Assembly: GCF_019649055.1 (NCBI RefSeq)
Contig: NW_026570314.1
Location: 186,001 to 250,000 of the forward strand
Origin: Paramacrobiotus metropolitanus
Taxonomy: Eukaryota; Tardigrada; Eutardigrada; Parachela; Macrobiotidae
Length of the DNA stretch: 64,000 bases
Direction: 5' to 3'
The position numbers and the translations under genes are program-made. The notes beneath the pieces are model-generated. The model worked only from the letters and a program-made list of their open reading frames with translations. It was not told where the DNA came from and ran no database searches. Every line of letters begins with the position of its first letter. Position 1 is the stretch's first letter. Shown in pieces: positions 17,409 through 63,061 of the stretch.

Positions 17409-19601
17409 TCAGCTGGATCTGACTTGCTCATCTGTATCGGCATCCATGGAAATCCGTAACTGGTTAAAATGCACAACGCTTTCTCGTCCAGCTACAACGA
17501 CCACATGACAATCACCCGACCGCGAGACGTAGTCAGCCACCACATAGACACCGTTAATACCGCGCACATGAACTTTGCAGTGGCTGTGCAGGACGTTTGC
17601 AGCGCGCACGATTCTATCAGGATGCGCAGCCCCATCTGATCCGCCGAATCGATACCTCGAATATGTGAACTGGAGTGCCCGTACTCCGACAATGTAGCTG
17701 GAATCCCAGTGCCATTTATCCCGTTTTACGAACACCTCTTCCATATCCTCGAAAACCACCTCACCGATCGTGTGCGCAACGTATTTTCGGGGTTCCGTGG
17801 GAAATTGCACGGGGTGGCGCAGCGTGTTATGTAATTTATGTCTGCAGCGGTTAATATCCCGCAGCTCCGTCGGTAGCAGTAAGGCGCTCTGCCAAAAACA
17901 GCGATATACATGTAGTTCTGTAATGTTTTAAATACCTTAGTCAAACTAAAAAGAAGATAAATAAGTGCCGCCAATATCTCTGCATGATAATGTTACCATT
18001 TTAAAGTTTACGAATGCCTACATACTTATCAGTTTTCTATGTACTGCATGACTGTATTTCAAACAATTTTTCACCAACTACAGAAGTATTGTTTAATGCA
18101 CTCTCCTATGCATTTATGTGATTTATCTTAGATTGCGTATATTATGTGTACATATCTATAATTCCCTTACTCCATTCCGCTACTAACCACAGCAAAGCAT
18201 GAGCTTATAAAGCATTAGAATTATGTACGTTTTCTTGTCCAGCAGTTCATAGACGCGTATTTACTTTGACGGATCCCGTAGCCAATTGCGCATCGGACAT
18301 AAGGGGAAAGCGGACAAGGAACAACGCGTCACCCAGCACTCGACGGCGATTATCACCGGCAGCCTCCAGATTACTTCTATGACAGACTGCCAGGGTCCAC
18401 CTACAGATGCAGCAGCAGAGAAATAGCAATTACAAATCTGAATTATTCGTTCATAACTAGTCGAAACCAGCTCACGGTATAATTCTGTTATGCATGTAAA
18501 CTAACCATAAGCAATATAAAATAATGATAATAGTGTATTATGATTATGTAAATTGAACATATAGCATTCAGCTTTGGTTTTTTTAATACTCTTTATAGAT
18601 GGCGTAACTGCATACACAAGTCTTGCACTACTCGCCTGTTATGCGTTGTATGCATTATGCCGTGGCATACAAGTACAGTGGAATTAGTACCACGGTGATG
18701 CGTATTAACTCAACGAATATCTCAACGTGTACCTTTCGACAGCCATCTAGACTTCGTTCTCCTCGACACACAAGGTGTTTCGTCATAAAATCATTCGCAG
18801 CAATTCTGGCTCGATTGTTGTAAAGTGTTCTGATATACAAACACTTTCAAATACTTTATCTAGTAGTGCCCAGCATTTTCTTATCAAGGGCGAATGGGAC
18901 GTGTGCACTCTCCAGCGTAATGCCTGTTAAAAAACAGAAAGATATTCGAAGAGTTTCCTATGGCGGTTTTCTGCATACTGACGGTAACGCTGCACGAGAC
19001 CAACATTGCCGAGAAAGGTAAGGCAGTTGTCAGCATCCAGGCGCTCGATGGCGAAGCCTGCACACAGTTGGGCTAACCAGGGCAGTTCAAATTTCTCAGC
19101 ACAGTAAAGCGTAGGAATGACGTTGGTTAAGTCCAGATGCTCTACCGCATCCGTGTAAATGAAGCTACAGAATTAATTTTATTATTGTGCTGTAGCACTC
19201 AAGACGCGGGAAGATGATATACGCAACGCTTTACTTCGAGAAAACAAGTACTGAGTTCGTCTGCCTACTTGAGAGTATTGGCAAAAGCTTCTGGAAGAAC
19301 CCCGGGAAGATCCACAATATCGCCATCGTTCTCGTCATCGTTTTCGTACAACATTGCATGAAAAACATCGCTGCGCATACTCACAATGAGTCTACAGAAA
19401 ACGATGCGCATAAGGCAGGCATAATAATTTGTGTAACACAAGATAAACGTTTGGCATACGGTACTTGTGGGCGGAGAAGACTTTTTCTTGTCCTTGATCC
19501 CCTCCGACAAAAAACTGTACATCACTCAGTTGTCTGCTGGTCAGCAGGTGCTTCATCCAATGCAAGATCCCCACAACGGAATCGTGAAGTGGTAACGCCA
19601 T
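17409..19601 (-). pseudogene. BTB-BACK protein a, with two in-frame stops
   Basis: Six exons can be placed by comparison with copies b-d: 19601-19465, 19391-19269, 19164-19005, 18923-18733, 18400-18265 and 17888-17409 (stop). Exon lengths 137, 123, 160 and 136 nt equal those of paralogues, and every splice site is present. BTB: LSDVQFFVGGDQGQ, then VSMRSDVFHAMLYEN. BACK: FIYTDAVEHLDLTNVIPTLY. Post-BACK: NRRRVLGDALFLVRFPLMSD. C-terminal Tudor/Agenet-like region: GEVVFEDMEEVFVKRDKWHW and INGVYVVADYVSRSG. The reading frame of the BACK exon is broken by TGA (18783-18785) where copy c has Arg, and by TAG (18747-18749) where paralogues have Tyr. Everything else is intact, so inactivation is recent, or the stops are sequence errors or are read through. 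The functional family resembles BTBD1/2/3/6 CUL3 adaptors. Confidence 0.7.
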
Positions 19602-21903: not shown

Positions 21904-23657
21904 CTACAAAATCGTCACAATTGCCCATCGCGAGGTAAGCAAAACGTGCGTAGTCTTGTTATGAAACACGAGTTTCTTATGAAGGAAGAAGTACATAGTC
22001 TTATTGTCACCTCGCCGAGGTTCCACGGGAAATGGAAGGGGTAACAAGTCTGCAGTTAGTGTATGATGGAGGCGGCGCTGGAGGTAGGAGAGCTCGTTTA
22101 GCAGCAGCAAACCAGTCTTGACATACAAAGACACAACCGTGAATCTCTGCAGTTCATGCGAAGCGCAGACCGAAAGATAATATTACTGACCTCTGCGGGA
22201 CCGTTGCGTAGCTGGTTGTCGGTTAGTAAGGGGAAACGGATGAGATATAGAGCAGCGCCCAACATTTGCCGCCCGTTGGCCGGAGATGGAACCAGACTAT
22301 TGCGAGCGCAAGCGTGCACGGCCCACCTACAACGTTACACCTGCATTACGTGCATGACAATATTGGAACTGGAATCGATGTCTGGAAGATTGCAAGCTAC
22401 CCACTGCCTTGTCAAATCAGGTTTTTTAAGTCATTTTACTTGTTGCATAGTGCGTACGTACGTACTTCAGTGCTCTCTGCACAGAGACACTTCATACATA
22501 TTATTACGATTTCGTATGAGCAGCACCTGCACGGGTTAAACAATGGTACTTTTCCGTGAAAGTCACACAGTAAAAGAACTTTTTTTAGTATTAGGGTACT
22601 TCTCTATAGCCGCATAGATTTTATCCTCTTCAGCATAAAATGTGTCTCGTTTGAGGATGGCTATCAAGGAGTCCTGTCCTAATTCAAGGAACTCCTTCGA
22701 CTGTAAAGCCTTCTCAGCCGACGCATCTACTAAGCGTAGGCAGTTCTCCACGATTTTCGGTGTTCCCCAAAACATCGCCTGTTTTTACGGTTAAGTCAGG
22801 TGTTCAGATTACAGCCGCATTTCATAGACAATTTAGTGACGGTTAGAACACGCTCACGCTCTCAAGGTTGGCCAAGCAGTTGTCGGTGTTGAGCTGGTTA
22901 AGGATGAAGGCGACGCAGAGTTCCACCAGCAACGGCATGTCATACTTATCGGCACATCCCAGTGTGTGGAAGGCATTGTCCTCGTTTAGGCACTCCACAG
23001 CGTCAGTGTACATATAACTGCAATTAACGTGCTTATGCGTTTGTACTCTGTACTTGATACTAAAATAACTGAGCGCATGATGTTAGAGCATCTTAACTGG
23101 ATTTGTTTTTCGGTTAAGCAGTTTGCGTAAGTTTCCAGTTATGAATGTAAAGGAATATAAGGTCACCAGTGCAGCTATCCGTTAGAAGCCGGCGTCTTAG
23201 TTCGATCTGGCAATATGCCATAAACATGATAAACATGAGAGGTAATCGCCAGGAGTCCATCCTCTTCTCATGAAATGCATCTTGCAAAGTAGCAAAAAGC
23301 TTCTAACGCACCTGAGCATGTTGGCAAATGCGTCTGGCAGAATATCGGGAATATCGATGGGAGCGGTACACTTCTCAGGTAATGTTCCATAGAACATCTG
23401 GTGGAAGACATCACTGCGGACACTCAGGATAATCCTGCAACAGTGGTGGAACCAAATAAAGAATAAGTGTTCCGCGGTAAATGGTATGAGTATTACTTAT
23501 GCGCTGAGAAGTGTTTTTCCTCGCCGTAATCTCTTCCCACCGCAAATTGCACATCGCTCATGTCGGGGCACACTAGCGAGTTTTCAATGCAGTTGATTAT
23601 TTTGGAGACTGCGCCGCGATGTTTCGCAGCACCCGATGAAGACCCGTTCGAAAACAT
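21904..23657 (-). CDS. BTB-BACK protein b, lacking the Tudor-like tail
   Basis: Exons are 23657-23497, 23434-23312, 23017-22858, 22778-22600 and 22326-22191, then 22116-21904 if unspliced, or 22116-22011 if joined to the MATH exons. Frames and phases all agree. BTB: MSDVQFAVGRDYGEEKHFSA, then RSDVFHQMFYG and IDIPDILPDAFANML. BACK: MYTDAVECLNEDNAFHTLGC, NCLRLVDASAEKALQSKEFL, LIAILKRDTFYAEEDKIYAA. Post-BACK: NGRQMLGAALYLIRFPLLTD. The final exon keeps the family PLPFPVEPR segment and then leaves the family: no Tudor/Agenet-like region follows. Unspliced, it ends after about 36 unrelated residues (323 aa total). The BTB-BACK core resembles BTBD1/2/3/6 proteins, which bind CUL3 through BTB. Confidence 0.7.
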
Positions 23658-24684: not shown

Positions 24685-26614
24685 TCACCCGATGTTTGTC
24701 TCTGTGTCCGTGGGAATTCGAAGCTGACCAAACTGCACCATGCATCCTACTCCACCCACTTCCACCATATGGGATCCACCCAAACGCGCAACATACACTG
24801 CCGCCACGTAGACGCCATCAATGCGTGCTTGAACCCTGCACGAACGCTTCAGGACAGTGACAGCACGCAGGATTCTTTCCGGCCGCGCAGTCCAGCTTAT
24901 GTACTGTGCTTTAGCATTTGGATAGTGACACGTCGAGTACATAAACATCGATTCTAGAATTCCGATAATTCGGCCGGGGTCCCAGTGCGCCTGCCCCTCA
25001 TCCCGTCTTATGAACACTTCTTCCTTATCTTCAAAAATAACGTCGCCGATTTGGTGCTCCACGTACTTTCGGGGTTCAGTGGGAAAAGGCACGGGATGCC
25101 GCGGCGTGTCGTGCTTGTGCCGGTAAATATCCCACAGCTCCGTCGGTAGTAGCAAGTTGTCCTGCAGGAAAATGTGAAACAGACAATTTGGCTGAAATGC
25201 TCTGTAGATGAACGTTCAACGAACGAACACAGCCGCGCATTAAAAAAATTTAAAAAAATAGTATTATGGTCTGTATACAGGTATTGTGTATCAGAGTCTT
25301 TTTAACGAACTCAATGCAGGAAACGCGTAGTTACTTTGACGGGCCCACGAGCCAGTAACTCATCGGACAGCAACGGAAATCGGATAAAAAACAAAGTATC
25401 ACCCAGTATCCGCCTCCGATTAGCACCGGCTGGTTCCAGATTATTCCGTTGGCAAGCTGCTTCAGCCCATCTGTGTAACAGCAATTTAAAATTCGAAATA
25501 AATATTTTTTCAGAAACGTCCACTGCAGACTCTGCAGTACCATCTAATATTATGGAACTATGCTTTAAAAATCCAATACTCATATGGAACAAAAATAATA
25601 CAGCCGCAAACTATTGTTTGATTACCACATACAGATACTATAATAAAGTAAGTGATCGATAATCATTTGCCATATATTTGGAGTGAATAGTTTATGTGCT
25701 GCACGTTGTATTTGTAATAATTTGTCGCAACTCTTACACCATCACAGCACAGTAAACGTTTCTCTCTTGGACGCACAGAGTATCACGCCGTAAAATCATC
25801 CGCAGCGTTTCCATTTTGATTGTCTTGAACTGCTCTAATCGGAGGATATCTTCAAAATTTTTGTCCAGGAAAGTCCAGCACTTCTGTATTAACGACGAAC
25901 TGACGATACTCCAGCACAGAACCTGTTCGCAAAGTGTTTGTACTTCCCCGGTAAAACACAAAATGCAGCTACATAATGCAGTGAAATTAGCGATATGCAC
26001 TGCTGCAGCGTGGAAGCCTACATTTTCGAGATAGGCTAGGCAGTTGTTGACTCGCAGGTGGTCCAGCGCGAAACTCATACACAATTCCACTAACCAGGGC
26101 AATTCAAATTTCTCAGCGCAGTACAGCGTGGGAAAGACGTTCGCTTCGTCCAGATCCTCTACCGCATCAGTATAGATGTATCTATAAAAAATTATTGTTA
26201 AGTTTATGCTGCACAATTTGGGCAATACGAAACTTTCAGTTTTAAAAACGTAAACTGGTATATACAGTATGTGCTCCTTGCCTTACTTGAGCATATTGGC
26301 AAAAGATTCCGGTGTAATATTGGGAAAATCCACCACATCGTCACCGCTAACGTTTTCGTAGAACATTGCATGGAAGACATCGCTGCGCATACTCACGATG
26401 TATCTACAGAATACAAGCCATACAAAATAATAGCAGGCAGAATAAATTGTACAACGCGCGATATCCAGTTGCCATACTTGTGAGCTGGAAAGATTTTCTC
26501 TTCACCGTGATCCCGCCCGACTGAAAACTGAACATCGCTTAGTTCTCCACTGACCAGCAAGTGTTTCATACACTGCATGATCCCCACAGCGCAGTCGCGA
26601 AGTTGAAGCGCCAT
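24685..26614 (-). CDS. BTB-BACK protein c with C-terminal Tudor/Agenet-like module
   Basis: Exons are 26614-26478, 26403-26287, 26181-26022, 25922-25738, 25470-25335 and 25161-24685 (TAG/TAA region stop), giving 403 aa. The third intron (25923-26021, 99 nt) has no stop and is a multiple of three, but paralogue b shows a real intron there. BTB (about 1-110): LSDVQFSVGRDHGEEKIFPA, SMRSDVFHAMFYENVSGDDV. BACK (about 110-205): IYTDAVEDLDEANVFPTLYC, IQKCWTFLDKNFEDIL, TLRMILRRDTLCVQERNVY. Post-BACK: RRRILGDTLFFIRFPLLSDE. The last exon (246-403) holds PVPFPTEPRKYVEHQIGDVI and a two-lobe region: EEVFIRRDEGQAHWDPGRII, then RIDGVYVAAVYVARLGG. This is the best-preserved BTB gene with d. Likely role: CUL3 substrate receptor whose tail reads a methylated or basic ligand (inference). 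Confidence 0.8.
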
Positions 26615-28142: not shown

Positions 28143-30561
28143 CTATTTCCCCGTTTCCGTTTTCCATTGCAAGACCACTTCGCTAGGAATTTTCAGATGC
28201 ATCATCTTCACCGTGTGTTGGCAATCGGCGACAATGATCACATGCTGACCAGCCCGGCGTGTAATATACACCGCATCCATCGATGCCTTGTCGGGAACAG
28301 TTTTAGCAAAAACGCGGCGTCCACGTCGCAGGATATCCGCCGCCCGCACCAGCTTCTCCAGAGGCACCGGCCGGCCGGCGCTCTTTGTCCACTGACAGAC
28401 CACCGCGGTGCCGCGGGTCCCGCTTACCCGCACCGCGTACCAAAAACCGTCGGGGCATTCGACAAACACTTCTTCGCCGTCCTTGAAGACATGCGGACCG
28501 ACGCGGTGCTGCACGTATTTTCGAGGTTCCGTGGGAAAGGGGAGTGGATGTGCGGTGAGGATATCGTGTTTGTACTGGTAGATGTCCCACAGTTCCGACT
28601 GCAGCAACAGGCCACTCTGTAGATAGATAAAAAAAGGAAATAAATTACGCGCGTACGGTAAGCATCTCCGGCATCTCGATGCAGGTTTAAGTGCACCCAC
28701 CTTCACGGGTCCTTTGGCTAGCTGAGCATCGGTCAACACGGGAAACCGTACGGCAAATAAAGCCGCACCCAACATCTCGCGGCGGCTATCACGGCTCGGT
28801 TCCAGGGCATTACGGCTGCACGCCTCCACAGCCCAACTGCAACATTATCAGTATGTGTTTAAGATTACTCTAGTCCACATAATTTTACAACAAAAATAAA
28901 TGTAGTACTATTTTCTATACAGATTAAAAGATAATTTAAATGATTAACAATAAAAGTAATTTTCAAATTAAACGATTAATATTTTTGCCGTGCGGAAACC
29001 AAATTTAATTTGAGCATAATTTGCAGCTTGAAAAAAAAATTCGCGCACGATTTCGTTATTCAAGACACTGTCCTAGATCATTTTATTCCTATTTGTGGAT
29101 GAATAGTCAATTTCGGCCGACTGAAATCATATGTCGATTTTCTCACGTTTCCCACAAATCAAAAAATGTAATTTTCATGCATGTTTCTGCAAGCATGGAA
29201 AAGCTGGCCACAGTATCGAATAACTAACCTCTCCACAGCATTGTACACGCTATATTCGTCCGCCGCCAGGGAATTACGCTGCACGATCATCTCCAGCGTG
29301 GCCGGCGCAATGGCCAGGAAGTCAGCGGTCAGCAGGAGAACTTCACTGGCGGCGTCGACCAGGTCCAAGCATCGCTCCACAACGCACTCCGCGTCGAACA
29401 TCCCCACCACCAGCCGGTCCAAAATTGGCAGGCAGTTGTCGACGTTTAAGTGCCCGCGGACGAAGTCGGAGCATTTCTCCACCAGCAATGGTAAATCGTA
29501 CTTGTCCGCGCAGGACCACGTGGCCAGGACGTTCTCCAAACGCAGACCGTCCACCGCGTCCGTGTAGATGTAACTAAAAACCAGAGTTAAAACGTTCAAC
29601 TTAGCGAGCAAATTTTTACCGGGCGTATTAAGAATTTCAAGTTCGATTCACGTAAGAATATTCTAAAGCGTCGTGAAGACAGATCAGTTTTTCAGTTCTG
29701 CAACACTCATATAGATATATAAGCAGCGTAAAATGATTCCCTTGTATTAATTTTCTTTAATCTTTTTAATAATGGTACAGGTTACAAAAAAGCCACTTTT
29801 GGTTGAAAAATCAGAAAACACGAGGAAATCTTCAGAATGTTCTAGACAGAAACCGCGTAACGCTGCCATACTGGGTGGTTATGATTGCTTCACCTGAGAA
29901 GCTCTTTTATTTCTTATTTCTTGAGTAAATGTTTTTCTGTTGGAGAGATGTAGAAGTCAGGTAATAAAATGCTTCTCACAGGAACACAGCCTATCCGGAG
30001 ATCCGGAGTTATTTTTTAACATTACAGGCTATTTTATTGTAGATTAAATGCAAAATCGTCTATTTTGTATAGAAATATTTTGTTATAAGCACAGTTTGTC
30101 TGTTGTCTGTACGCTATAGAACTAGTTGATATGCAATTATTCTGTCCCATTCTATGCTTCTATCGTAGGGGATTGGTACGGTAATAAATCGTACCTGAGC
30201 ATGTTGGCGAAGGCATCTGGATGGATATCGGGAATATCCACGATATCTGCGCATTTGTCCGCCAAGCTGCCATAGAACATGGCATGGAAGACATCGCTGC
30301 GCAGACTGACGATGTTCCTGTAAAAACGTGAATCAAGTACCTGTATGTGTACTGTACTAAATGTGCACGGTTCCTAATGGTCCTAAATCTAACGAGGACC
30401 TACTTATGCGCAGGGAACATCCGCACTTCACCATGATCCCGTCCCACGGAAAACTTGATGTCACTTAGTTCACCGCTAACAAGCGATCGTCTCAGGCAGT
30501 CGGCGATGCCCGTCAGCGCACCCCGCTCCTGAGGACCAGCGCAGGAAGAGGAAAGCGACAT
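28143..30561 (-). CDS. BTB-BACK protein d with C-terminal Tudor/Agenet-like module
   Basis: Five exons: 30561-30404, 30317-30195, 29573-29229, 28836-28701 and 28616-28143. Phases agree and give 411 aa. BTB: LSDIKFSVGRDHGEVRMFPA, VSLRSDVFHAMFYG, IVDIPDIHPDAFANML. BACK: IYTDAVDGLRLENVLATWSC, then VVERCLDLVDAASEVLLLTA. The intron that splits BACK in a-c is absent here. Post-BACK: RREMLGAALFAVRFPVLTDA. The tail has the clearest Tudor-like lobe of the family, VFKDGEEVFVECPDGFWYAV followed by GTAVVCQW and PLEKLVRAADIL. The second lobe is RRVFAKTVPDKASMDAVYIT with VKMMHLKIP. The coding DNA is more GC-rich than its AT-rich flanks. The last intron (28700-28617) has no stop in frame, so intron retention would still give a protein. 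Expected role: CUL3-type E3 substrate receptor. Confidence 0.82.
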
Positions 30562-31225: not shown

Positions 31226-32468
31226 TACCTGATAATAATAAGTATGGTAGTGGTCGCTTACCTAAAATAGCGGTACCTTCATAAGTTCCCGTTTAAAACA
31301 TTATGTCGAATTTACGGCAGAGCTTGCGCTGCAGGTGCCTAAATTATTTGACATTATTTAATTAACTGCTGACTGCAATTTCGTCGTATGTACATAATGT
31401 ACACAGTAGGTACTACTTACGATTAGTACATACATACATACAGTATATACACACAAATACATGCTGTCTGTACATACAAATGTTCGGCTTTAGGATCCGG
31501 TAAAGAATCGAGTTACGTTATATTACAAACATCTGCACCTTGGAATGCATCATAAATCGATATAAAACTTAATAAATAATAAAAGTAAAGAAAAACGTTT
31601 TTTGAGATACATCCCAAGGAACTAGTTCCGGTTAAACAAGAACGTCAACGTATACTTCTATCTATATTCTCGTATAGCGTAAAACAGCGCTGCTTGCTAT
31701 GACCTAAAAATTGTTTGGAATAAAACCGAAAACTGACCACCTTCCTTACGCACCAAAACCGTTGAAGCAATTCGATCATTCTGGCGCAATGCGAGCCTAT
31801 TAAAACGGAAGTTACCACCTCTGTATATAGAGACACAATAATTATAAAATAATTACAATCAGATACAGCTCATATGTTCCCTCGTCTCTGAAAGGTTGAC
31901 TTGTAAAGGCAATCGCGCACAGAAATTATGACTTGAATTTCAGTTAATCTTCATCATTTCCAGACGGAGTGTGCTCCTTACTTCGCCCTACAGGAAACAT
32001 GTGGTATGTGCATGGTACTGAAACGTGGTACCGTAAAATTTCTTATCTTTTAATTTCAGATGCTATCTGGCGGTACAGTAGCTATAATCCTTAACATGAA
32101 CTGAGCTTTCCCTGGGAATTACGCGCGAAAATAAACAAAAAGTGATTTGAAACTGGGTTATGTGGGGCACTTTTAGCCCGATTACGGTCGATTATCTAAT
32201 TGACACAGCCTTTTAATAAATCCGGCACTGTATTGAATTTCTGAGGAAAGTATTGAAAATTTATTATGTACATCCAGAAAAATATGGGATTGCAACTGAT
32301 TTCTGAGAGACATATATGAGGTAGCATTTGCTGTGGATGCATTCTCAGCCAGAATAATAATCGCATTCCTTTGAAAGTATATCGTCTGCATTTTTCCTGC
32401 ACACTTACATTCCGCATTTTGCTAACGGAATTTCGCTCTGCAAAATCGGTGCGTTAAGCTTTACCATT

Positions 32469-32876
32469 ATGAGCAGGATGACGAACAATACGTCAGCGCT
32501 AACAAACACTCCTGACGTATGCGATGCGTCTGCCAATCGGCTAAACTGGACATTGGGTGGTATCACAATTTTACCAATCACAATCCTAAATTTTGTGCTA
32601 AACGGAGTTGTACTGGTATTTTATCTCACCAACTTGCGCCTGCTGAGGGATTTTCATGTTTACGTCTTTACGCTTTTGAGCTGCAACTTCTTCTATGAAG
32701 CTTTTTTTGGACCACTAGAACTGATTAACAACATCTTCGCCGTATGGTGCTGGGGTTCCCACTGGTGCACCTTTCGTATTTATTCCGCGAATGTCATCCC
32801 GTACTGCCAGTATTTCGCCCATACATGGGGTGCGAAGCAAACTGGCTATGCGCCCGGTGTACCGGGCGCAAAGTAA
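32469..32876 (+). pseudogene. Rhodopsin-like GPCR copy 1, truncated after TM3 start
   Basis: Begins MSRMTNNTSALTNTPDVCDA (glycosylation sites in the extracellular N-terminus). TM1 is ITILPITILNFVLNGVVLVF and TM2 is HVYVFTLLSCNFFYEAFFGP. The conserved extracellular Cys before TM3 lies in GSHWCTFRIYSANVIPYCQY. After FAHT (about 32825) the reading frame enters a GC-rich inverted-repeat insertion and stops. The parts from TM3 to the stop codon, present in copy 2, are gone. Only an N-terminal fragment can be made. Confidence 0.75.
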
Positions 32877-45155: not shown

Positions 45156-45157
45156 AT

Positions 45158-46495: not shown

Positions 46496-49230
46496 ATGGC
46501 CAGTCAAAGTTCAGCGCCGCAATCGGCCATAGCGCGTTTCAGTCGTTGGATTCGTAAGCGTTGGAAATCCCTGTCACTAGGCCGACAACGCAACAGGGAC
46601 TTTATCCGAGCAGAACATTCTGCCGCCGCCCTGGAACCCTACGACGGCAGCTGCCGTCAGATTTTGGGGAATAACCTGCAGCCAGTTATTTACGAATTCG
46701 CAGCGGGACAGTTCTCTCTGGGCTATGTGTGCGATGTGGACTGGTCGGGACGGCGCATTTTGGTGAATTTCGCCTGTCACAACCGCCCACCCCGGTGGTT
46801 GCCAATTAGGAAGGTTCACCAGCAACAGACTGTCAAGGTTAACAAAATCTGCCCTGAAACGCCGGTCCTAGCCGCGTGCCGGCTGAACTCCGACGAACCC
46901 TACGTATTCCAACCGGCGCGAATCATCTTTCCTGATAGGTACGGCCGTGCCGGTCCAATCTGCGTGGAAGTGACACTCCCGGGCAGCGGTATCCGTACTC
47001 GGAAGTTTCTTCATCCTATCCAGCTGCGGATTATCCCGGAGAATCCGCGAAACCACCGGGAAATCGATGATTTATTTTCCGTTGTTGAATACTGTCGCCT
47101 GCTACAAAAACAGACGGTGCTTCTCGAGGCAGGACTGGATGCGGAAAATATTGATTTGCAGTGTTTATTGCGAACACTGAACAACATTTCTTATATGAAA
47201 GTGGTGCAGATATGGCTAGACAAAAAATATTTACACTGTGTTTACACGAAAAACCAAGCGGGCTTACTTGATAGCTTGGAGTTGGAAGGTCTGGTCCGCA
47301 AATCGTACCGGTGCGGCGCCATCGTGCCCGCAGTACTTCCGTATCCCGACCACCCTGACCCCAATGATAGCCGCTATACATCTTTGGGAATGCTACCGTG
47401 TGAGCTGCAAGAGTGTATCCTGCTAGAAATCCCCGACGTTCACAGCATCGTTAGCCCTCAGAGGTACGCTTTGTAAATAAAGACGAGCAATGCCGCAACT
47501 TATTAATTAGATGGCCCCCAGCAAATTAGCAAGACAACAAAGACTGTCATCGTGCGGTGATTTGGTAGCCAGGAAGCAAATATTCTGCAGTACATTCGTA
47601 GAATGCCCCCCTCCAAATTAACGCCTCGGGCGTTTAATAAATTTCGCCGCACCCGTGTTATTAGTAGTTGTTAGTCTGTTCACTATTGTGCTGCTATGTT
47701 AGCTTTTACGGCTATATAGTACATGCACTATGATACATAGTATGTCATGTAGAGATATCATGTACAGATACATTAGTATACACTATACAGCACACAACAT
47801 GTATGCACAAGTTGACACAACATGTGAAGATAGTCATTAATAGAATTAACATACTGTACATTACACATAGATACACTAGTATACATCATGTAGAAATAAA
47901 TAATATTATGTCATAGATATAAATATTTATATTAGTATCTGTGCGTGCGTGCACTTGATGACCACATAGGGTGATAGACCATCTGGATAAAATGAAATGC
48001 AGATTAAGGGCCTTCTAACTGTGGCCGGATGCAAGTTCACTGCGCATCTGGTAAACAGGCAGCCACACCTCACAGCAATTTTTGCTCTAATATTATGAGT
48101 TTTAGAAGCGTTACGTTGTCGTTCCAGAGTATGCAAGATCTGGTACGATATGCTGACCGGTCGCCACCGCAAGCAAAACATAGCTATCGACCTGACCAAC
48201 CTACTATCCGATGGTTCAAACGACCACGAGCAACAGTATCGCCGCACTCATCTGCTGAATGTTCTCGACAATGCCGTGAAAACGGCCACCCAGTCGCTGA
48301 CGCTGATGAACGGCGACCTGAGCCCGGACTTGGAGCTGTATGTCTATCAGTTTCTATCGTTAAAGGTCACACGCCTGCGGATGATCGTCCTGAAAAATGT
48401 TTGGTGCTTTGACGCCCTTGCGGAAAAAAAGGCGAATCAGGCACTGAAATGGGCTAACCTCCGTCACTTGACGCAAGTTTGCCAGGTACTTCATCTGCGT
48501 GACGTCACTTTTCCCGCCTTGCTCGAGACTATCACCGGTTTATGTGGAATGCCGGCTGATTTGCGGCAGGACGTTGACGTTTTCGTGAAGAAAGTTGCCC
48601 TGCAATCCACGCTCAGCGAAACCGATCGACTACGGCAATTTCTGATGGCTTTGAACGCCAGTTGTCCTGAACTCTCCGTATGTGATTCGGAAGAAGTTGA
48701 TAGAGCCTGCCACGCGAAGATCAAACAATCCAAAATGTCATTCCTCATGCCAAAATTGTATGTAATTATCGCCTCGGTTTTGAGGAAACAAGGAAGCACG
48801 ACTGGGTCGTGTTCCGTATACAATACATAGTATAAGATTTACAAAGTGAAACATGCACATCGCAAAAAATCAATTTCGTTAACGATTTTAAAACCGCTGC
48901 TTTACGGGTCCAAACTCCAGAGTGAGCGTCTGGTTTACCATTGCAACCTTAGTCAGATGTTTGCATGATAACTGTGGCGCTCCGATGGAACAAGAATTAT
49001 GCCGCAAATAATTTTATTGAAATACTATTATAACGTGCTCATTATTATCACTCTGTAGACTGAATGAACTGGTGACCGGGCATCCACAGCCGCCGCTGTG
49101 CAGCCTCGCAGCCCAAGTCTTCCGCTACCAGTATCCCATCGCGAAACCGGTCAGCTCCAGCAGCCGTCGGAACCGTCCCATGTCACATGTTCCCAGCCAC
49201 ATGAACGGAGCAGCGATAAACCAGCATTAA
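46496..49230 (+). CDS. F-box protein copy C with N-terminal two-lobe Tudor/Agenet-like region
   Basis: Exons are 46496-47463, 48128-48757 and 49059-49230, giving 589 aa. The N-terminus has a basic stretch (RFSRWIRKRWKSLSLGRQRN). Lobe 1 contains FSLGYVCDVDWSGRRILVNF and lobe 2 contains EPYVFQPARIIFPDRYG with HPIQLRII. The F-box, LPCELQECILLEIPDVHSIV, is completed by VCKIWYDML across intron 1, so the domain is split at the same codon in all copies. Exon 2 is leucine-rich and slightly shorter (630 nt) than the 645 nt of A, E, F and G. Intron 2 has a GTATGT donor. Exon 3 encodes LNELVTGHPQPPLCSLAAQV and a Ser/Arg-rich tail. F-box proteins recruit substrates to SCF ligases; here the N-terminal module may be the substrate reader (inference). 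Frame and splice sites are fully intact. Confidence 0.82.
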
Positions 49231-50580: not shown

Positions 50581-50753
50581 CTACCGTGTGGAGAGCAATC
50601 CACACAGCCGAATAGCTCTAGAGTAATGTCAGTAAACCGCAGTCTCGGTTGCCAGTTTGCACTCAGCTCGTGTCTATCTGCTTTTTAAACCGTTTCCCAA
50701 CCGGATTAAACCTTTGAGCGTTGTATTAGATTTCACCTACCTCAACTGTCGAA

Positions 50754-52284
50754 ATGACTAGTCAGAGCCAGTCACCAAAATCAACCTGGACCAACTTCTA
50801 CCGTTGGATCCAAAAGCCTTGGAAATCACTGTCGATCGCCAGACAAAATAAGGACGCTCTGCAAGTAGACCCTTTTGCAGCCACCCAGGAAGCAATCGCC
50901 AAAAACAGCAATTACCATCAGATATTGGGAAACAACCTACAGCCAGCTGTATGCGAGCTTTCATCGGGACAACGAGTTCTGGGCTACGTGTGCGACGTCG
51001 ACTGGACGGCACGTCGAGTCCTGGTGGATTTAGCTGGTCACCTTGCACCTCGGTGGTTGCCCATCGTGAAGGTTCAAAAGCATCAGGCGGTCAGAACTGG
51101 GGAAATCCACTCAGGAACGCCAGTCGTAGCAGCGTGGCGGCTGAGCGTCGACCAACCCTACGTATTCCAACCGGCGCAAATTATTTTCCCCGATACTCCC
51201 GGAAATTCGGGTCCAATCTGTGTGGAAGTGACACCACCGGGCGGCAGTACTCCCGCTCAGAAGTTCCTCCATCCTATACAGCTGCGGATTGTACCGAACG
51301 ATCCGAGAAACCACTGGGAAATCGATGAATCGCTCTCCGTGGTCGAATACTGTCGTTTGCTGCAGCATCAGACGGCGTTACTCGATCCCGGTCAGGATGC
51401 GGGAGATGTTTGTTTGCAGCACTTAATGTGGGCAATGAACGACTTCACTTGGATGAAAGTGGTGCGGATATGGACAAACAAAAAATGCGTTCACTGTGTC
51501 TACTCGAAAAACGGACCTGGCTTTTTTGATGAGAGGGACTTGGGAGGTCTTGTCCGCAGATCGTACCCGTGTCGCGCCATTGTCCCCACAGCTTTTCCAG
51601 ATGACAACACTTATCCCAGCGGCAATCGTTGCGCTTCTTTGACAAAGCTGCCGTATGAGCTGCAAGAGTGTATTTTGCTGGACTTCCAAGACGTTCACAA
51701 CCTCGTTAGTGCTCAGAGGTATGATGCGAGAAAATGAACTCTAGTAATGCAAGTTCTACTCTAGTAATACAAGCTTCGAAATTGCATTAGATATGTTTTT
51801 TTGCAGCGTCTGCAAGACCTGGTACCATATTCTATCTGGTTCGCGGCGCAACCACCATGTAACGGTCGATTTGGCCAACCTAACATCAGATGGCCGCTCT
51901 CATCTCCTCAACGTCCTCGATAACGCCGTCACAAAGGAGACCGTGTCCCTGACATTAAAGAACGGTTATCTCGGCCCGGAGCTGGACCTGTTCGTCTTTC
52001 GGTTTTTGGCATTAAAGGTCACGCATCTGCCGATGATCGTCTTGAAAACTGTTCGGTGCTTTCATGTTGTTGCGCAGAACGACGAGCAAAAGCGCCCGGG
52101 CGAGGCCAATCTCGGTCACTGGACACAGGCTTGCCAAGTACTGCATCTGCGTGACGTCACTATTGGAACGGTGTTCCGCTCGGTCGCCGGGTTGTGGTAC
52201 ATAGCTGACACGGAGCAGGCCGATGTTGTTTTCGTTGAGAAAGCCGTGCTGCAATGTAAGCCCGGAAAAGCGGTTCGATTATGA
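50754..52284 (+). CDS. F-box protein copy D, short C-terminus
   Basis: Exons are 50754-51718 and 51807-52284, giving 480 aa. The only visible intron is 88 nt with a GTATGA donor. The N-terminal module is intact: VLGYVCDVDWTARRVLVDLA, then YVFQPAQIIFPDTPG and HPIQLRIV. The F-box is LPYELQECILLDFQDVHNLV plus VCKTWYHIL. Exon 2 stops at KAVLQCKPGKAVRL, about 55-60 residues before the usual splice site. The following DNA still shows a faint relic of exon 3 (CTAACCGAACCGCCGCTACA near 52376). The early end is shared with copy B, so it arose in their ancestor and D has persisted with it. Probably functional as a shorter isoform type. Confidence 0.78.
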
Positions 52285-53143: not shown

Positions 53144-55573
53144 ATGGCCAGTCAAGGTACAGCACCAAAATCAACCAAAGCGTGTTTCGCTAGTTGGGTT
53201 CATAAGCGTTGGAAATCCCTGTCATTACATCGAAAACGCAGCAAGGGCATTCTTCGAGTAGACCTTTCCGCCGATGTTCAGGAAGCCATCACCGAGGACA
53301 CTAATTGCCGTCAAATCTTAGGGAAAAACTTGCAGCCGGTTGTTTACGAATCCGCCACGAGACAGTTCTCTCTAGGGTATTTGTGCGGCGTGGACTGGCC
53401 AGGACGTCGCGCCTTGGTGGATTTCCTCTGTCACAACCGTCCACCCCGATGGCTTCCCGCTGGGAAGGTACGCCAGCATAAACCAGTAGAAACTAGGGAG
53501 ATTCTCCCCCATATTGTGGTCACAGCTGCGTTGCGGCCGAGCTCCGATCAACCGTACGTATTCCAACCGGCTCGAATTATTTTTCCCCCGGCTACGGATA
53601 TCTACGGCCAAATCAGACCAATATGTGTGGAAGTAACGCGTCCAGGCAGCGCTGGCTTTATTCGGAAATTCGTTCACCCAGTCCAGGTGCGCGTTGTGGC
53701 GGAGTCTCCGGGAACAGATGAGTCACTGGTCGCATACTGCCGTCTGCTGCTGAAGCAAACGGCGCGTCTCAATTTCTGTCCGGGTGCGCCAAATATTGAT
53801 TTACGGAACTTATTGAAAGATTTCAACGAAATTCCCTGGATGACAGTTGTACGGATATGGCTGGATACCGAAGGCATCCACTGTGTTTACACAGAAAAAA
53901 AAACGGGCGTTTTCCGTCAGGCGGATATGGAATATCTGGTCCGCAAGTCCCAGTGGCGTCACACAATTCAACGTAGTTCGCTTCCGCGTTCCAACAGCAC
54001 TGACACTGAAAACACTAACATAAACCGTTCCGTGCCCCTGGGAATGCTGCCATATGAACTGCACGAGTGCATTATGCTGCAAATCCAAGACATTCACAGC
54101 ATCATTAGCGCCCAAAGGTAAGCTTTAAAAGTTAGGTAATTCAAGATGAGTCGCTGTAACAACTATTTGATGACCATGCAATATTTTGAGTGATGCTCAC
54201 CAGTGCCAATAAATTTAATGGAATCAGGTACTAAGACAACTCTAGACAGGTTACATCTTGCGGTTATCCGAACCAGCAATCGCCAGGTGTACAACCAAGT
54301 AGACAACATTTACTTTTATTTTCGAGTTGCTAGTCTCAAAGCAAACATTAGTTATGTTTTTTCCAGAGTTTGCAAGACCTGGTACGACATTCTGAACGGC
54401 CGCTACCGTAGTCCACACGTAGCTGTGGACTTGACCAACCTACTAATCGATGGTCCAAGCAACCGGGAGCGAAAGTACAGACTCACTTATCTGCTTAATA
54501 TCCTCGACAACACCGTAACAGCGGCTACTGTGTCGCTGACACTGATAAACGGCAATCTGACAGCTGAACTGGATCTCTGTATCTTTCAGTTTTTGTCAAT
54601 TAAGGTCAGACGTGTACCGGTAATCGTTTTAAAGAACATCCGCTGCTTTGGCCCCCTTGCGGTGAATTTCCAGACGCAGCGGCTAGAATGGGCCAACCTC
54701 AGCAACTTATTGCAGGCTTGCCAAGTGCTGCGCTTGCGTGACGTTACCATTTCTACCGTCTTTGGGCCCATCGCCGGGTTGTGGTGTATACCGGGCGGAT
54801 TCCGAGAGGACGTCGATGTTTTCGTTGAGGAAGCCGGGCTGCACTGCTCACTCGGTGAAACTGATCGTTTGGTATATTTTCTGCAGCTTTTGAACGCTGG
54901 CTGTCCCGAACTCTCCGCGAAGGATGTAATCGGCATCAACGAAGCCTGCCATAAGATAGTCATCTGGGACAAGCATCCGTTACACAACCCGTTGTGGCAC
55001 ATGCTTACATTGTAAGTATTGTCTACTCCCCGTTTCTAACCAACGAAGATTAAAAACTGCCGTAAAAGAAAATTATTATAGAATTTAGGACAAGATTTCT
55101 TATTCGCACAGATTTAATCGAACCAGTACACTTACAAATAACTTCTCGCGTCTGATGGTCAGTGTGCGGCACGTGTGGCGCACACCCGCTTTTCAGAGTT
55201 AAGACCGCAAAAAAGCTGGTTTATCGCTTGGCCAAAGCGAGCCTCAGGTTTTTGATTAAAATTTTGGTCAGCTGGTCCATTGGTCTGGCGGTCCGACAGA
55301 ACGGGAACCACGTCCGAAATGTATCATCATACACTACGTTAGTGAGCTGCTGTTTTCAGGCTGAACGAACCGATAACCATGGAGCCACAACCGCCGCTGT
55401 GCAGACTCGCCGCCCACGCCTTCCGCTACTCGTATCCCAAGGAGATATCCCACCACTCTGGCAGCCGCCGTAAGGCACGCTCAGTGTCACGTGACCAGCT
55501 GCGCCACCAGACGAACGGCGTCTGGGATATACCGGTATTTAAATTTAGTGTCATAAAGATAGTTTTCTGTTAA
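53144..55573 (+). CDS. F-box protein copy E
   Basis: Exons are 53144-54117, 54367-55011 and 55360-55573, giving 610 aa. Order of parts: basic N-terminus (WVHKRWKSLSLHRKRSKG, about 18-35); lobe 1 (about 57-110, FSLGYLCGVDWPGRRALVDF); lobe 2 (about 125-190, QPYVFQPARIIFPPATD ... HPVQVRVV); a linker with SLVAYCRLLLKQTARL and VVRIWLDTEGIHCVYT; F-box (about 302-336, LPYELHECIMLQIQDIHSII, VCKTWYDIL); leucine-rich exon 2 (VSLTLINGNLTAELDL, ACQVLRLRDVTI); and exon 3 tail LNEPITMEPQPPLCRLAAHA with a GVWDIPVFKFS end. Donors are GTAAGC and GTAAGT. All parts are intact. Expected to act as an SCF substrate receptor; ligand unknown. Confidence 0.83.
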
Positions 55574-56611: not shown

Positions 56612-59600
56612 ATGGCCAGTCAAGGCACAGCACCGCAAACAACCAAAGCGCGTTTCAGTCACTGGATTCATGGTATTCTGCGAGTAGACCATCGCACCGC
56701 TGCTCGAAAAGCCATCACCGATGACAGCAACTGCCGTCAAATCCTAGGGAAAATTCTTCAGCCCGTTGTTTGTGAATTTTCCACCGGGCAATTCTCTCTG
56801 GGATATTTGTGCGGCGTGGACTGGGTAGGGCATCGCGTCTTGGTGGATTTTGCCTGTCACAATCGCTCGCCCCAGTGGCAGCCCGTTGGGAAGGTTCTCC
56901 TGCATGAGCCAGTAAATACTCGTGAGATCCGCCCCTATACTCCAGTTATAGCAGCGTTGCGACCAAACTCCGACCAACCTTACGTATTCCAACCGGCGCG
57001 AGTTATTTTTCCCCCGGCAACTGATAGCTGCGGCGATATCGGTCCAGTATGTGTGGAAACGGCGCTCCAGGGCGGCGCTGACTTCATTCGGAAATTCGTT
57101 CATCCCGTCCAGGTGCGCGTTGTGGCGGAGTATCGGGGAACAGATGAGTCCCTTGTCGCATACTGCCGCCTCCTGCTGAAACAAACGGCGCGTCTCGATT
57201 CCTGTCCGGGCGCGGCGAATCTTGATTTAAGGAACATGTTGAGAGATTTCAACAAAGTTCCCTGGATAACAGTTGTGCGGATGTGGCTGGATACCGAAGG
57301 CATCCACTGTATTTACACAGAAAGAAAACCAGGCGCTCTTAGCCAGGCGCAAATGGAATATTTTGTTAGAAAGTCTAAGTGGCGTCAGACAGTTCAGCTC
57401 GGCTTACTTCCACATCCCAACAGCATCGACACTAAAAGCACCAACGTAGACAGTTCCATGTCCCTCGGAACGCTGCCATATGAACTGCACGAGGGCATCA
57501 TGCTGCAAATCCATGACATTCACAGCGTCGTTAGTGCTCAAAAGTAAGGTTTAAAAATTATTGCTAGAAGAGTCGCTGTAACAATTATTTGGTCACTATG
57601 TATACAGTATTGGTTAAGATGTTCATCAGTGTATTAATTCGAAATACATTAACGAGTAAATTGACGTACTTATGCACTAACCAGGGGCCGATCACCGCCT
57701 CCCCCTCATAAAAATTTCTTTCGTCGGCAATGGTCCAGTGGGCGTGGCGAAAAACAAATTTATATGCCGTACGTATTGTCAATGTACATTGTATTGGCAA
57801 TTACTGTACATGCGGCACCCCGATCAGTGTTACATGGTATCACTGCATTTGCAGTTTTCCTTTTTGACTACTAATTCTTCAATTTGGTTTTCATAACATT
57901 CAATTTTTAAAAATCTGACCGGTAGTCGATTTGATGTGACTGCACTGCATACCTCTAAATTCTTCTCTGTGCTGCACCACGCGCGCGATGCTGGCAAGTA
58001 CAAAGAATTCACGAGACTTTTACATTGCCGCGCCAGTCAGTAAAAAGTAAAATTTACCGAAGAAAAAGTCAAAAGAGAAGTTTTCACCAGTACGACGAAC
58101 ACCGTTTTATGAGAATACGTACATACGTACATTAGCCATGTATAAATGCCGTATATATTGCCAGTGCATTAACAATACACACGGCAGTTAAATTTATTTA
58201 TGGGCACGACCACTGGACCATTGCCGATTAAAATACTTTTTTTAAATATTCCCAATACCTACTCCGTCTTCAAGCAAACTATCAAATTTTTCTGAGGGCG
58301 GAGGCGGTGACCGGGCCCTGGTAAGACAATGCTGAGCAGGACAACTTGTTGGTCATATAATTTATACAGTGGCTTGTGTAGATAGAAAGTATTTTTTTCA
58401 CAGATCACAAATTTGCAGGCAAACTGAAGCATCGACTTTATTATATATACTGCTTCGGAAAGCAGCCAGTTGTGTGGACTTAAATGCAAAAATAGCAATA
58501 CAACTGTGACAGCCAAAGTTCAATTTAAGAAAACACCGGATCTAAGGCTCAGTTTATTAGAAATTCGGATCGGCTTGATACGTAAAATACCTTGGTATGT
58601 CCAGCTTGCTACGCATAGTTAGGGTAAATCGCACCATGTAAAACAGATTAGACAACATTTATTTCCACTCTTGAGAAGTTAGTTTTAAGGTTATTATAAG
58701 CTGTACTTTTGCAGAGTGTGCAAGACCTGGCACGATATTCTGAAAGGCCGCCACCGCAGCCCGCACGTTGCTGTTGATCTGACCAACCTGCTACTGGATG
58801 ACCCAACCAGCCAGGAGCAAAAATACAGCCGAACTCATCTGGTTAATATCCTCGACAACACCGTAACAACGGCCACCGTGTCGCTGACGCTGGCGAACGG
58901 CAATCTAACCCCGGAACTGGACCTTTATCTCTTTCAGTTTCTGTCCATTAAAGTCACGTGGCTGCCGATAATTATTCTAAAGAATATTCGTTGTTTTCGC
59001 GCCCTAACGCAGAACTTCCAGACGCAGCGGCTAGAATTTGTCAACCTCAAATACCTCATGCAGGCTTGCCAAGTGTTGCGCTTGCATGACGTCACAGTTC
59101 CAAACCTCTTCGGACCGATCGCCGGGTTGTGGTGCACTTCGGCCGACTTCGGAGATGACGTCGATGCTTTCGTTGAGAAAGCCGCGCTGTGTAGCGGGCT
59201 CAGTGAAACCGATCGCTTGAGGTGTTTTCTGCAGGTTTTGGACGCCGGCTGTCCTGAACTGTCCCCGAGGGCCGTAATTGGCATTAACGAAGCCTGCCGT
59301 AGGATAATCACCCGTGACAAGCATCCTTTGCACAGCCGACTGTTGGTCATGCTTACGCTGTAAGTATTTTTGCTCTCGTTGGACGATGGATCAGGATAAG
59401 ATTGGTTAGTTATTGCCTTATTGGTTAGGCGACATATAACCGATGTGCCGAAAACAGTCTCCAAGTGAAGACTGAGAAAACATGTTATATCACATGACAA
59501 AAGTAAACATCAGGTTCAGAATTTTGTTCAGCTGTTCCGTTGGTCCGACGGAACAAGGATTATGTCTTAAATTGAATGATATGCATTCCAATACTTACTT

Positions 59601-60854: not shown

Positions 60855-63061
60855 ATGGCCAGTCAAGGCACAGCACCGCACTCAGTCAAAGCGCGTTTCA
60901 GTCGCTGGATTCAAAAGCGTTGGAAATCCCTGTCATTCGCCAGACAACGCAACAGGGACACTATCCGAGTAGACCATTTCGCCGCTGCCCGGGAACCCAT
61001 CGCCGAAGACAGCGACTGCTGCCAAGTCGTGGGGAAAAATCTGGAACCAGTTGTCCATGAATTTGCACCGGGACAATTTTCTCTGGGCTATTTGTGCGAC
61101 GTAGACTGGGAACGATGTTGCGTCCTAGTGGATTTCGCCTGTCATAACCGGCCGCCCCAATGGGTACCCGTTGGGAAAGTGCGCCCGCATAAGCCTGCAG
61201 TATTAACTAGAGAGATCCGTCACCGTACTGGAGTAACAGTCGCGTTGCGGCCGAACTCAGACCAACCGTACGTGTTCCAACCGGCGCGAATCATTGTACC
61301 CTCGGCTGCGGATAGCTACGGCGGTATTGGTCCTGTATGTGTGGAAACAACGATGCCGGGCGGTGGTGGCGTTATTCGGAAATTTGTTCATCCAGTACAG
61401 GTGCGCGTTGTGGCGGATTATCCGGAACATCATCACCACCACGAAACAGACGAGTCTCTCTCTGCCGTTGTCGGATACTGTCGTCTGCTGCAGAAGCAAA
61501 CGGCGCGTCTCGATTCCTGTCTGGGTGCGGCAACGATTGATTTACAGCACTTGCTGCGAGATTTAAACGACATTTCTTGGATAAAAGTTGTGCGGATAAA
61601 GGTGGACACCAAAGGCATCCACTGTGTCTACACAATACATAAACCGGGTGTTTTTGATCAAGCGTATCTAGAGCATTTGGTCCACATGTGCAAGTGGCGT
61701 CAGACTGTTCAGCTCGACTCACCACCGCGTTCCTGCAGCACTAACACTAGAAACACTAACATAAGCCGTTCCGTAACCCTCGGAATGCTGCCACTTGAAC
61801 TGCACGAGGGGATCATGCTGCAAATCCATGACATTCACAGCGTCGTCAGCGTTAAAAAGTAAGTCCCAGCAACTGCAACAACTTATTTTATGCCCAACGT
61901 TTTTACCGATCATTACCTGTACAAATGCCGATGAAGCATTTAATTGAAGTAATGGGATAGATTATGGCAGTAATCTTCGATTATACAAATAACTTTTCAG
62001 GCTAAAATAAGCTGTGCTTGTTGCAGAGTATGTAAAACTTGGCACACCATTCTTAACGGTCGCCGCTGCAACCCACATGTCGCCGTCGACCTGACTAATT
62101 TACTACCCAATAGTTCAAGCAATCGAGAGCGAAAGTACAGCCGCACCCATCTGCTGAATGTCCTCGACAACGTCGTAACCGCGGCCACGGTGTCGCTGAC
62201 GCTGCTAAACGGCAATCTAACCGCGGAACTGGATCTCTATATCTTTCAGTTTCTATCCATTAAGGTCACCCAACTGCCGATAATCGTTTTAAAGAATATT
62301 CGCTGCTTTCGCTCCTTGGCACAAAACCACGAGGAGCGACGGTTGAAATGGGCCAACCTCAGTTACTTGATGCAGGCTTGTCAAGTGTTGCGTTTGCGTG
62401 GCGTCACGATTCCCAGCCTCTTCGGGCCCATTGCCGGGTTGTGGTGCGCACCGGCAGATTTCCGAGAAGACGTCGATGTTTTCGTGGAAAAAGCCGCGCT
62501 AAACTGCGCTCGCAGTGAAGCGGATCGTATGTGGCATTTCCTGCAAATTTTGAACGCTGGTTGTCCGGAACTGCCCACGAGGGACGTAATCGGCATTAAC
62601 GAAGCCTGCCATAAGATAATCATACGTAAAGACCATCGGTTGCACGACCGACTGTGGCTTATGCTTACGTTGTAAGTATTTTCTGCCCCCGTTTCTACCA
62701 TAAGATGAACACAAATACCGAAAGCAGAATAATAATGAAGTAATTAAGCCTCCGGTTTATGATTAAAAACTTGGTGAGCTGGCCGTCCGACAGAGCGGGG
62801 AATTATGTCCTAAATTGCATCGTTATATGTACACTAACTTAGCGAGCTGCTGCCTTCAGACTGAACGAACCGGTGACCCGGGAGCTGCAACCACCGCTAT
62901 GCAGACTCGCCGCCCACGCCTTCCGCTACTCGTATCCCATGGAGATGTCCTCAAATTCAAGCAGCCGCCATCAGACACGCTTAGTGTCACGTGACCCATA
63001 TCACATGAACGGCGTCTGGGATATACCGGTACTGAAATTTAGTGTCGTATATTTCACGTAG
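60855..63061 (+). CDS. F-box protein copy G
   Basis: Exons are 60855-61858, 62027-62671 and 62860-63061, giving 616 aa. An in-frame ATG nine bases earlier (60846) exists, but 60855 matches the MASQGTAP start of the paralogues. Features: basic RFSRWIQKRWKSLSFARQRN; lobe 1 FSLGYLCDVDWERCCVLVDF; lobe 2 YVFQPARIIVPSAADSYG and HPVQVRVV; a His-rich insertion (EHHHHHE) in the linker that the other copies lack; F-box LPLELHEGIMLQIHDIHSVV with VCKTWHTIL; leucine-rich exon 2; exon 3 LNEPVTRELQPPLCRLAAHA ending KFSVVYFT. Donors are GTAAGT in both introns. Intact and probably expressed. Confidence 0.83.

Follow-up and report, generated by a model that had tools for sequence, protein, structure and literature searches.

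Gene organization of the locus

The 64,000-nt window analysed here (contig NW_026570314.1, positions 186,001-250,000, from the tardigrade Paramacrobiotus metropolitanus) contains two families of putative ubiquitin-ligase adaptor genes, that is, seven copies of an F-box gene (A-G) on the forward strand and four copies of a BTB-BACK gene (a-d) on the reverse strand. In F-box copies B-G, which have both exons inside the window (copy A is cut by its start), a pair of lobes lies N-terminal to the F-box, and in BTB-BACK copies a, c and d two lobe-like stretches lie C-terminal to the BACK domain. The F-box lobes proved to be paired Tudor (Agenet) domains like those of FMRP/FXR, and in the BTB-BACK genes the two-lobe unit appears to stand in for a PHR domain. 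A first-pass annotation of the window had claimed that the two families share a two-lobe Tudor/Agenet-like module and had suggested that they make up a coordinated degradation system with a common class of ligand. What it observed was confirmed in part and its interpretation found partial support; the presence of both adaptor types in one locus, with the lobes where a substrate-binding domain is expected, holds as described. Three features described below go beyond that annotation, namely in-frame stops in BTB-BACK copy a, the well over one hundred genomic matches to each family and the placement of the BTB lobes where PHR would be. The coordinates of all features are collected in Table 1.

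A GT-AG intron splits the F-box in all seven F-box copies, and the joined frames contain no stop codon. It is because of this intron that single-exon Pfam scans were blank for the F-box. On the reverse strand, the spliced frame of BTB-BACK copy d runs for about 410 residues and matches BTB at 1.6e-19 and BACK at 2.7e-6 in Pfam. Copy a is probably not working, as its BACK exon (18717-18852, reverse strand) is interrupted by two in-frame stops.

Table 1. Positions of the F-box and BTB-BACK copies and of their domains, numbered from the first nucleotide of the window
Feature	Position	Strand	Remarks
F-box copy A	15-1635	+	end of exon 1 15-481, exon 2 987-1635; complete exon 1 upstream of the window
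F-box copy B	42260-43624	+	exon 1 42260-43014 (lobes, third domain, start of F-box), exon 2 43153-43624; 5' start approximate
F-box copy C	46493-48830	+	exon 1 46493-47463, exon 2 48128-48830
F-box copy D	50751-52284	+	exon 1 50751-51718, exon 2 51807-52284
F-box copy E	53144-55015	+	exon 1 53144-54117, exon 2 54367-55015
F-box copy F	56612-59363	+	exon 1 56612-57543, exon 2 58715-59363
F-box copy G (copy modelled)	60858-62675	+	exon 1 60858-61858, exon 2 62027-62675
Copy G lobe 1, first Tudor of the FMRP-type pair	61035-61187	+	model residues 10-60: strands 14-20, 23-33, 38-43, 51-54, short helix, 58-60
Copy G lobe 2, Tudor 2	61209-61412	+	model residues 68-135, strand order as in lobe 1
Copy G third domain, alpha+beta	61443-61715	+	KH0-like placement from the model match, without sequence confirmation
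BTB-BACK copy d	28146-30561	-	exons 30561-30404, 30317-30195, 29573-29229, 28836-28701, 28616-28146; open frame after splicing
Copy d lobe 1, probable Tudor/SH3-like barrel	28329-28514	-	from profile comparisons
Copy d lobe 2, beta strands predicted at low confidence	28182-28328	-	from the model
BTB-BACK copy c	24688-26614	-	lobe exon 24688-25182; splicing read by hand, appears sound
BTB-BACK copy b	22012-23651	-	BTB, BACK and linker; no lobes
BTB-BACK copy a	17412-19580	-	lobe exon 17412-17897, open; two in-frame stops in BACK exon

The F-box lobes form an FMRP-type tandem Tudor

The two-lobe module is real, and the F-box lobes are a tandem Tudor of the FMRP/FXR type, because a deep profile, a structural model and the profile of a second F-box family all agree on this identification. 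First, a profile of the window family built from 44 window and genome sequences matched FMRP (2bkd, 2.3e-4), FXR1 (1.3e-3) and FXR2 (4.8e-3) in the PDB and next listed PHF19, MTF2, Pcl and PHF1; all 14 of its 14 rows belong to what we take to be Tudor proteins. Second, an AlphaFold model built from the seven window rows alone, and hence independent of the genome profile, displays twice over a succession of four strands, a short helix turn and a final strand. The top eight rows obtained with this model in Foldseek were FMRP (seven) and FXR2 (one), the best E value being 1.6e-6 to the Tudor-Tudor-KH0 structure of FMRP, while in VIA-align the matches to SGF29 (Z 9.3, 117 residues, 3.7 Å) and FMRP (Z 9.1, 193 residues, 7.6 Å) are counted as tied. 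Third, a second F-box family in this genome, larger than the window one and represented by 23 sequences, matched FXR1 (6.2e-10), FXR2 (2.3e-9) and FMRP (2.2e-8 to 6.3e-8) over both Tudors, and hhalign aligned this family with that of the window at a probability of 97.8% over 112 columns. The Tudor/Agenet character that had been read from the lobe motifs at first pass is thus upheld by profile, by structure prediction and by the second family. That the lobes are a chance pattern is ruled out by the profile, model and selection results.

Shallower searches returned nothing of this kind. That is, the seven window F-box lobe rows matched no Pfam family, a single lobe pair had no phmmer match in the PDB, and a search with a degenerate DNA pattern gave no match. 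As far as the window family is concerned, the evidence as judged from these searches is that of the deeper profile and not of the shallow seven-row one.

Pfam scans of the spliced F-box cover copies C and E. The spliced segment of copy E scored above the cut-offs of both PF12937 (25.3 bits, cut-off 24.3) and PF00646 (22.6 bits, cut-off 20.5) and is an F-box by motif; the copy C segment (16.2 and 15.4 bits, respectively) and the whole spliced copy E (19.0 and 16.2 bits) fell below them. At E <= 1, the full copy E protein gave no Pfam matches other than F-box ones, with no KH1, KH2 or RGG region. Therefore, the F-box genes are carriers of an FXR-type module, not members of the FXR family, the genome's own FXR showing both KH_1 and KH_9 in Pfam.

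Among the 15 pairs that can be formed from copies B-G, the ratio of nonsynonymous to synonymous substitution rates (dN/dS) was 0.21-0.42 for the lobes in every pair, 0.15-0.57 for the F-box and 0.18-0.53 for the C-terminus. The third domain, located between the lobes and the F-box, had values of 0.35-0.72, the highest of the four regions in many pairs. The F-box copies are under purifying selection, and the pairwise values carry no sign of positive selection.

The third domain stands at the position of the KH0 domain of FMRP and may be KH0-like, a reading made from the model alone in the window family and from sequence, at an hhalign probability of 22%, in the second family. VIA-align barely probed it, since the Tudor lobes fill the rows listed for the F-box model.

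The FXR/FMR1-type gene of this genome (Tudor_FRX1, KH0 and KH; C5:3433332-3433952) is a single open frame of about 610-630 residues, intronless there. The Pfam family Tudor_FRX1 has 20 matches in the genome at E <= 1, four of them above the cut-off, and the best ones besides FXR (C106:65813, C209:97496 and C106:35488) are short frames of about 100 residues.

Extent of the families in the genome

The whole genome assembly (169.8 Mb, 533 contigs) was scanned with profiles, the best 150 candidates being scored in each search. The counts are of matches, that is, pieces and not genes, and some genes yield two, so the counts are rough lower bounds. On this basis there are at least 147 matches to the window-type lobes at E <= 0.01 (best 150 of 318 candidates), at least 150 to the second-type lobes (best 150 of 505), at least 150 to the F-box-like domain (best 150 of 997 first-look candidates) and at least 150 to the BTB-lobe family (best 150 of 340); the BTB domain had 1036 first-look candidates. 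The module of the second family was found in 8 of 20 sampled F-box matches, seed included, and the window-type profile also reaches five of those eight loci. The other 12 loci were read only about 1 kb upstream, and more of them may carry the module. These 20 F-box loci, like the 16 BACK loci considered below, were hand-picked at roughly even steps along the lists and not at random; the seed itself is one of the 20, and members of the sample entered the iterated profile.

The BTB-BACK backbone and the replacement of PHR

Judged from its sequence, the BTB-BACK backbone belongs with BTBD1/2/3/6. The BTB-BACK-PHR gene of this genome carries the linker QSGLLSDKEVKELF, and a phase-0 intron before SGLL is common to this gene and copy d (GPAQ/SGLL and GPVK/SGLL, the slash marking the intron). 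Moreover, the BACK end matched the genome's BTBD-PHR gene at 5e-4, the best value among 16 other BACK loci being 0.015, a comparison in which those loci are handicapped as they start in mid-BACK. A BTBD-type backbone with the same intron implies that PHR gave way to the two lobes. A passage in PMC1257465 describes PHR as the expected substrate domain of BTB-BACK-PHR proteins and gives four to seven such proteins per metazoan genome. PHR itself has seven matches in the present genome at E <= 0.1, and it was absent from the Pfam matches at E <= 1 of 42 lobe members and of copy d. Degenerate PHR domains as the origin of the BTB lobes are ruled out by sequence, PHR occurring in none of the 18 Pfam families or PDB lists obtained with the lobes.

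None of the 16 BACK pieces sampled from the upper part of the BACK list, each of about 2.7 kb, contained the lobes, and most show Kelch repeats by eye. The BACK clusters on contigs C3, C7, C52, C84, C139 and C155, whose sampled members look like BTB-BACK-Kelch genes, make up a third large adaptor set. Among the matches listed in a search of open-licence papers, neither a BTB-BACK protein with Tudor-like lobes nor an F-box protein with FMRP-type Tudors was reported.

The BTB lobes and their relationship to the F-box lobes

Lobe 1 of the BTB-BACK proteins is probably a Tudor/SH3-like barrel. An alternative, which we regard as a serious one even if we lean away from it, is that only the F-box family has Tudor readers, in which case the BTB lobes would be small beta domains of a different kind (PWWP, SH3, myosin-N-like or novel), their Tudor likeness would reflect a common G-x-W-Y-x-A-x-V strand pattern, and the linkage of the two families would be an accident of duplicated clusters. 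The PDB matches bear on both readings. The Drosophila Pcl Tudor came first with profiles of both 42 sequences (0.024) and 61 sequences (0.042), followed by rows that include the PHF20L1 Tudor and a TFIIS chain, presumably a PWWP domain. Proteins that we take to be of the royal family (Tudor or PWWP) account for five of the seven rows in the former case and four of the seven in the latter, which speaks against another fold. However, no row is significant, and the seven rows of the 61-sequence profile, none below 0.042, include an SH3 domain, an uncharacterized protein and CT771. In Pfam, the weak matches of the 42 lobe members scatter over 18 families (Myosin_N three, Agenet three, PWWP two, the others one each), in favour of the alternative; of three lobe rows, one had a weak DUF3085 match, and the three-row profile reached the Pcl Tudor at 0.84 and an SH3 domain at 2.6 in the PDB.

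Comparison with the second F-box family likewise cuts both ways. BTB lobe 1 aligned with Tudor 2 of that family at 75% over 19 columns (0/60 shuffles as high), in favour of a Tudor, but missed its Tudor 1 (0.36%, 24/60 shuffles as high), and lobe 2 matched nothing in the profile comparisons. An AlphaFold model of the BTB lobes (three rows) reached a predicted local distance difference test score (pLDDT) of only 41. No row of the fold searches made with it reached E 0.001 or Z 5, and these searches prove nothing, the model being poor, even though the top Foldseek row was the FXR2 tandem Tudor (E 0.31). Of the two-lobe Tudor-like layout described at first pass for copies a, c and d, the two stretches themselves stand, with a weak Tudor likeness in lobe 1 and none in lobe 2, for which the profile comparisons gave no match to the proposed SH3-like barrel.

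Aligned directly, the BTB lobes and those of the window F-box family yielded hhalign probabilities of 1.3% (2/40 shuffles as high) and 2.5%, so that a module common to both families, as initially claimed, was not demonstrated. Lobe 1 against lobe 1 gave 4.1% (0/40 shuffles), a result in favour of a relationship. The F-box third domain, intended as an unrelated control, reached 1.8% with the BTB lobes (0/40 shuffles), and because this control scored equally well the low values carry little either way. The test is also insensitive, since it fails to pair Tudor 1 with Tudor 2 of the second F-box family, although the match to FXR identifies both as Tudors. This means that, on sequence, common descent of the BTB and F-box lobes is not proven, being neither shown nor excluded.

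Linkage of the two adaptor families

The 27 best window-type F-box matches fall into six clusters, five of which have a BTB-lobe match no more than 10 kb away, against an expectation of 0.11; none of 20,000 random placements reached five of six. The window was chosen for the pairing itself, and with its contig left out four of five clusters are still paired. In these null models, contig extents were interpolated from known ones. For the second-family F-box clusters, by contrast, proximity to BTB lobes was at chance level (2/60 at 10 kb, null 0.92, P 0.23; 3/60 at 50 kb, null 2.13), which rules out linkage as a general property of F-box genes. Kelch-type BACK clusters showed a small excess, with 3/41 at 10 kb (null 0.57, P 0.017) and 6/41 at 50 kb (null 1.31, P 0.0007), in a control made of 78 of the 154 BACK matches (listed rows 13-90), not all of which are necessarily Kelch genes. 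The pairing, seen at further sites in the genome, is far beyond chance and, of the two F-box families tested, specific to the window-type subfamily; the attention drawn to it at first pass was justified. What it establishes is that the two families repeatedly occur together, not that they function jointly, and copying of a single ancestral cluster that contained both could account for it.

Pocket residues and the possible ligand

In a passage of PMC5430443, the tandem Agenet of FMRP is reported to bind methyl-lysine, while it is argued there that the ligand is methylated RGG/RG proteins such as FUS; the same passage doubts a histone role and describes the pocket mutants F32L and Y96L. Residues were mapped to FMRP by counting along the alignments of the PDB profile matches. 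The position of F32 is aromatic in 39/44 sequences of the window family and 23/23 of the second family, and that of Y96 in 1/44 and 0/23, respectively. Other aromatics are strictly kept, namely the W of PPxW (44/44) and W83 of the second family (23/23). From these residues, Tudor 1 could have a classical reader pocket, and for Tudor 2 one is doubtful. The idea of a methylated or arginine-rich ligand, put forward at first pass, is weakened because Y96 is kept in neither F-box family, though the F32 position is, and such a ligand was not demonstrated.

Proposed function

The observations would best be explained if the F-box genes encoded adaptors of the SKP1-CUL1-F-box (SCF) ligase that take their substrate half from the N-terminus of FMRP/FXR, namely the tandem Tudor, probably together with a KH0-like domain, and join it to an F-box and a C-terminal region. 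In the BTB-BACK genes, a PHR domain of the BTBD1/2/3/6 type would have been exchanged for the two-lobe unit, the first lobe of which is probably Tudor/SH3-like. The F-box would connect to SKP1-CUL1 and BTB-BACK to CUL3, and the lobes of each family would bind a client and bring it to the cullin ligase for ubiquitin tagging, such that proteins would be chosen for degradation. Taken as a whole, we hold this explanation, with SCF and CUL3 adaptors using their lobes as the substrate part, with moderate confidence.

A number of results weigh against it. For the F-box lobes, confidence in the model is low (mean pLDDT 52, with ten-residue blocks of 53-70 over the lobes), and the 44 single lobe members had no significant Tudor match in Pfam, where 16 families were hit by one member each. 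Among these families were Tudor_FRX1, at 0.073, and an unrelated EGF family, at 8.4e-4. The seven-row window profile listed only four Snu13-type rows in the PDB (0.47-0.65), and the genome's FXR reached 8.6 bits against the window lobe profile when the best shuffle reached 6.5, or 5.2 against 5.3 bits once the third domain was added. The sole other PDB row of the second family was ribosomal bS1 (4.7e-4). For the third domain, the second-family profile (13 sequences) falls in line with the KH0 of the genome's FXR over 53 columns with 0/50 column shuffles as high, yet at the low hhalign probability given above; the window family reached 0.35% with 4/50 shuffles as high, its profile search did not list the genome's FXR, and a Pfam KH_9 search found only FXR and not the window-family third domain. 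To these points are added the loss of Y96 and, on the BTB side, the lack of a significant PDB row, the poor model and the unmatched lobe 2. Moreover, only four SKP1-domain matches exist in the genome beside its very large F-box set, and the binding and degradation roles of both adaptor families are likely ones, as predicted from domain content.

Somewhat unlikely is a reading in which both families serve as a recognition repertoire of fast turnover, immune or directed against selfish elements, with the Tudor barrels acting only as a stable frame for varied surfaces and no common methyl ligand. The many clustered copies (at least 147, 150 and 150 matches and 997 first-look F-box candidates) and the lost Y96 pocket position would fit such a repertoire, and the large F-box and MATH-BTB families of nematodes have been discussed in this light. 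However, the lobe dN/dS of 0.21-0.42 indicates no positive selection at the level of the region, and the core aromatics, such as the W of PPxW, are strictly kept. Less probable still is the strongest form of the joint-system idea, that is, that the two unrelated backbones each acquired FMRP-like tandem Tudors, multiplied to hundreds and were kept adjacent as a paired, lineage-specific repertoire reading modified or arginine-rich proteins and destroying them via SCF and CUL3. Finally, it is quite improbable that the FXR pathway itself is the target of the F-box proteins, their FMRP-like half competing for FXR partners or pairing with FXR and removing them: the fused part is indeed the N-terminal half of FMRP, the genome retains an open FXR gene, and the literature reports binding of methylated RGG/RG proteins such as FUS by the FMRP tandem Agenet (PMC5430443) and action of human Fbxo4 on Fxr1 (PMC5688124), but a single FXR gene would not require so many adaptors and the window family is distant from the genome's FXR (8.6 bits).

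On the preferred explanation, the Tudor pair of the fragile-X proteins, known from RNA and chromatin biology, would be placed on the substrate side of ubiquitin ligases in very many natural variants. These variants would offer a natural test set for what the pair binds, a matter still debated for FMRP itself. The BTB-BACK genes, furthermore, would illustrate a domain exchange, from PHR to lobes, in a conserved type of CUL3 adaptor, and the locus as a whole a case of SCF and CUL3 adaptors expanding side by side.

Other genes in the window

Two similar, adjacent open frames occupy positions 32361-35083 (forward strand). The second matches the rhodopsin family of G protein-coupled receptors at 7.8e-9, and the first had no Pfam match at E <= 0.1. 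On the reverse strand lie a galactosyltransferase gene of at least two exons (14228-15799; PF01762) and exons with teneurin- or integrin-like EGF repeats (4142-8200). The receptor and galactosyltransferase genes, the presence of introns and the FXR gene elsewhere in the genome give the sequence an animal-like character.

Comparison with known systems

The window BTB genes have in common with BTB-BACK-PHR proteins (BTBD1/2/3/6) the BTB and BACK domains, the linker QSGLL..E... and the phase-0 intron before SGLL, but carry the two-lobe unit in place of PHR, and their lobe family has at least 150 matches compared with four to seven BTB-BACK-PHR proteins per metazoan genome. With the KLHL proteins (BTB-BACK-Kelch, CUL3 adaptors) they share the backbone, and the substrate domain sits at the same position; they have no Kelch repeats, however, and the sampled BACK-list loci form a separate set.

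Clustered expansions of F-box genes are known in nematodes and plants. Like SCF F-box proteins of the FBXO type, the window proteins possess an F-box (above the Pfam cut-off in copy E) and have expanded in clusters, but they differ in having their substrate part, a tandem Tudor of FMRP type, ahead of the F-box. With the N-terminal half of FMRP, FXR1 and FXR2, the F-box lobes agree in the order of the two Tudors and in their register, by sequence as well as by model, and in the second F-box family a KH0-like stretch may follow the two Tudors (22% probability). The F-box proteins differ from FMRP/FXR in their many copies, in that the pocket residue Y96 is not kept, and in that an F-box and a C-terminal region stand in the place of KH1, KH2 and RGG.

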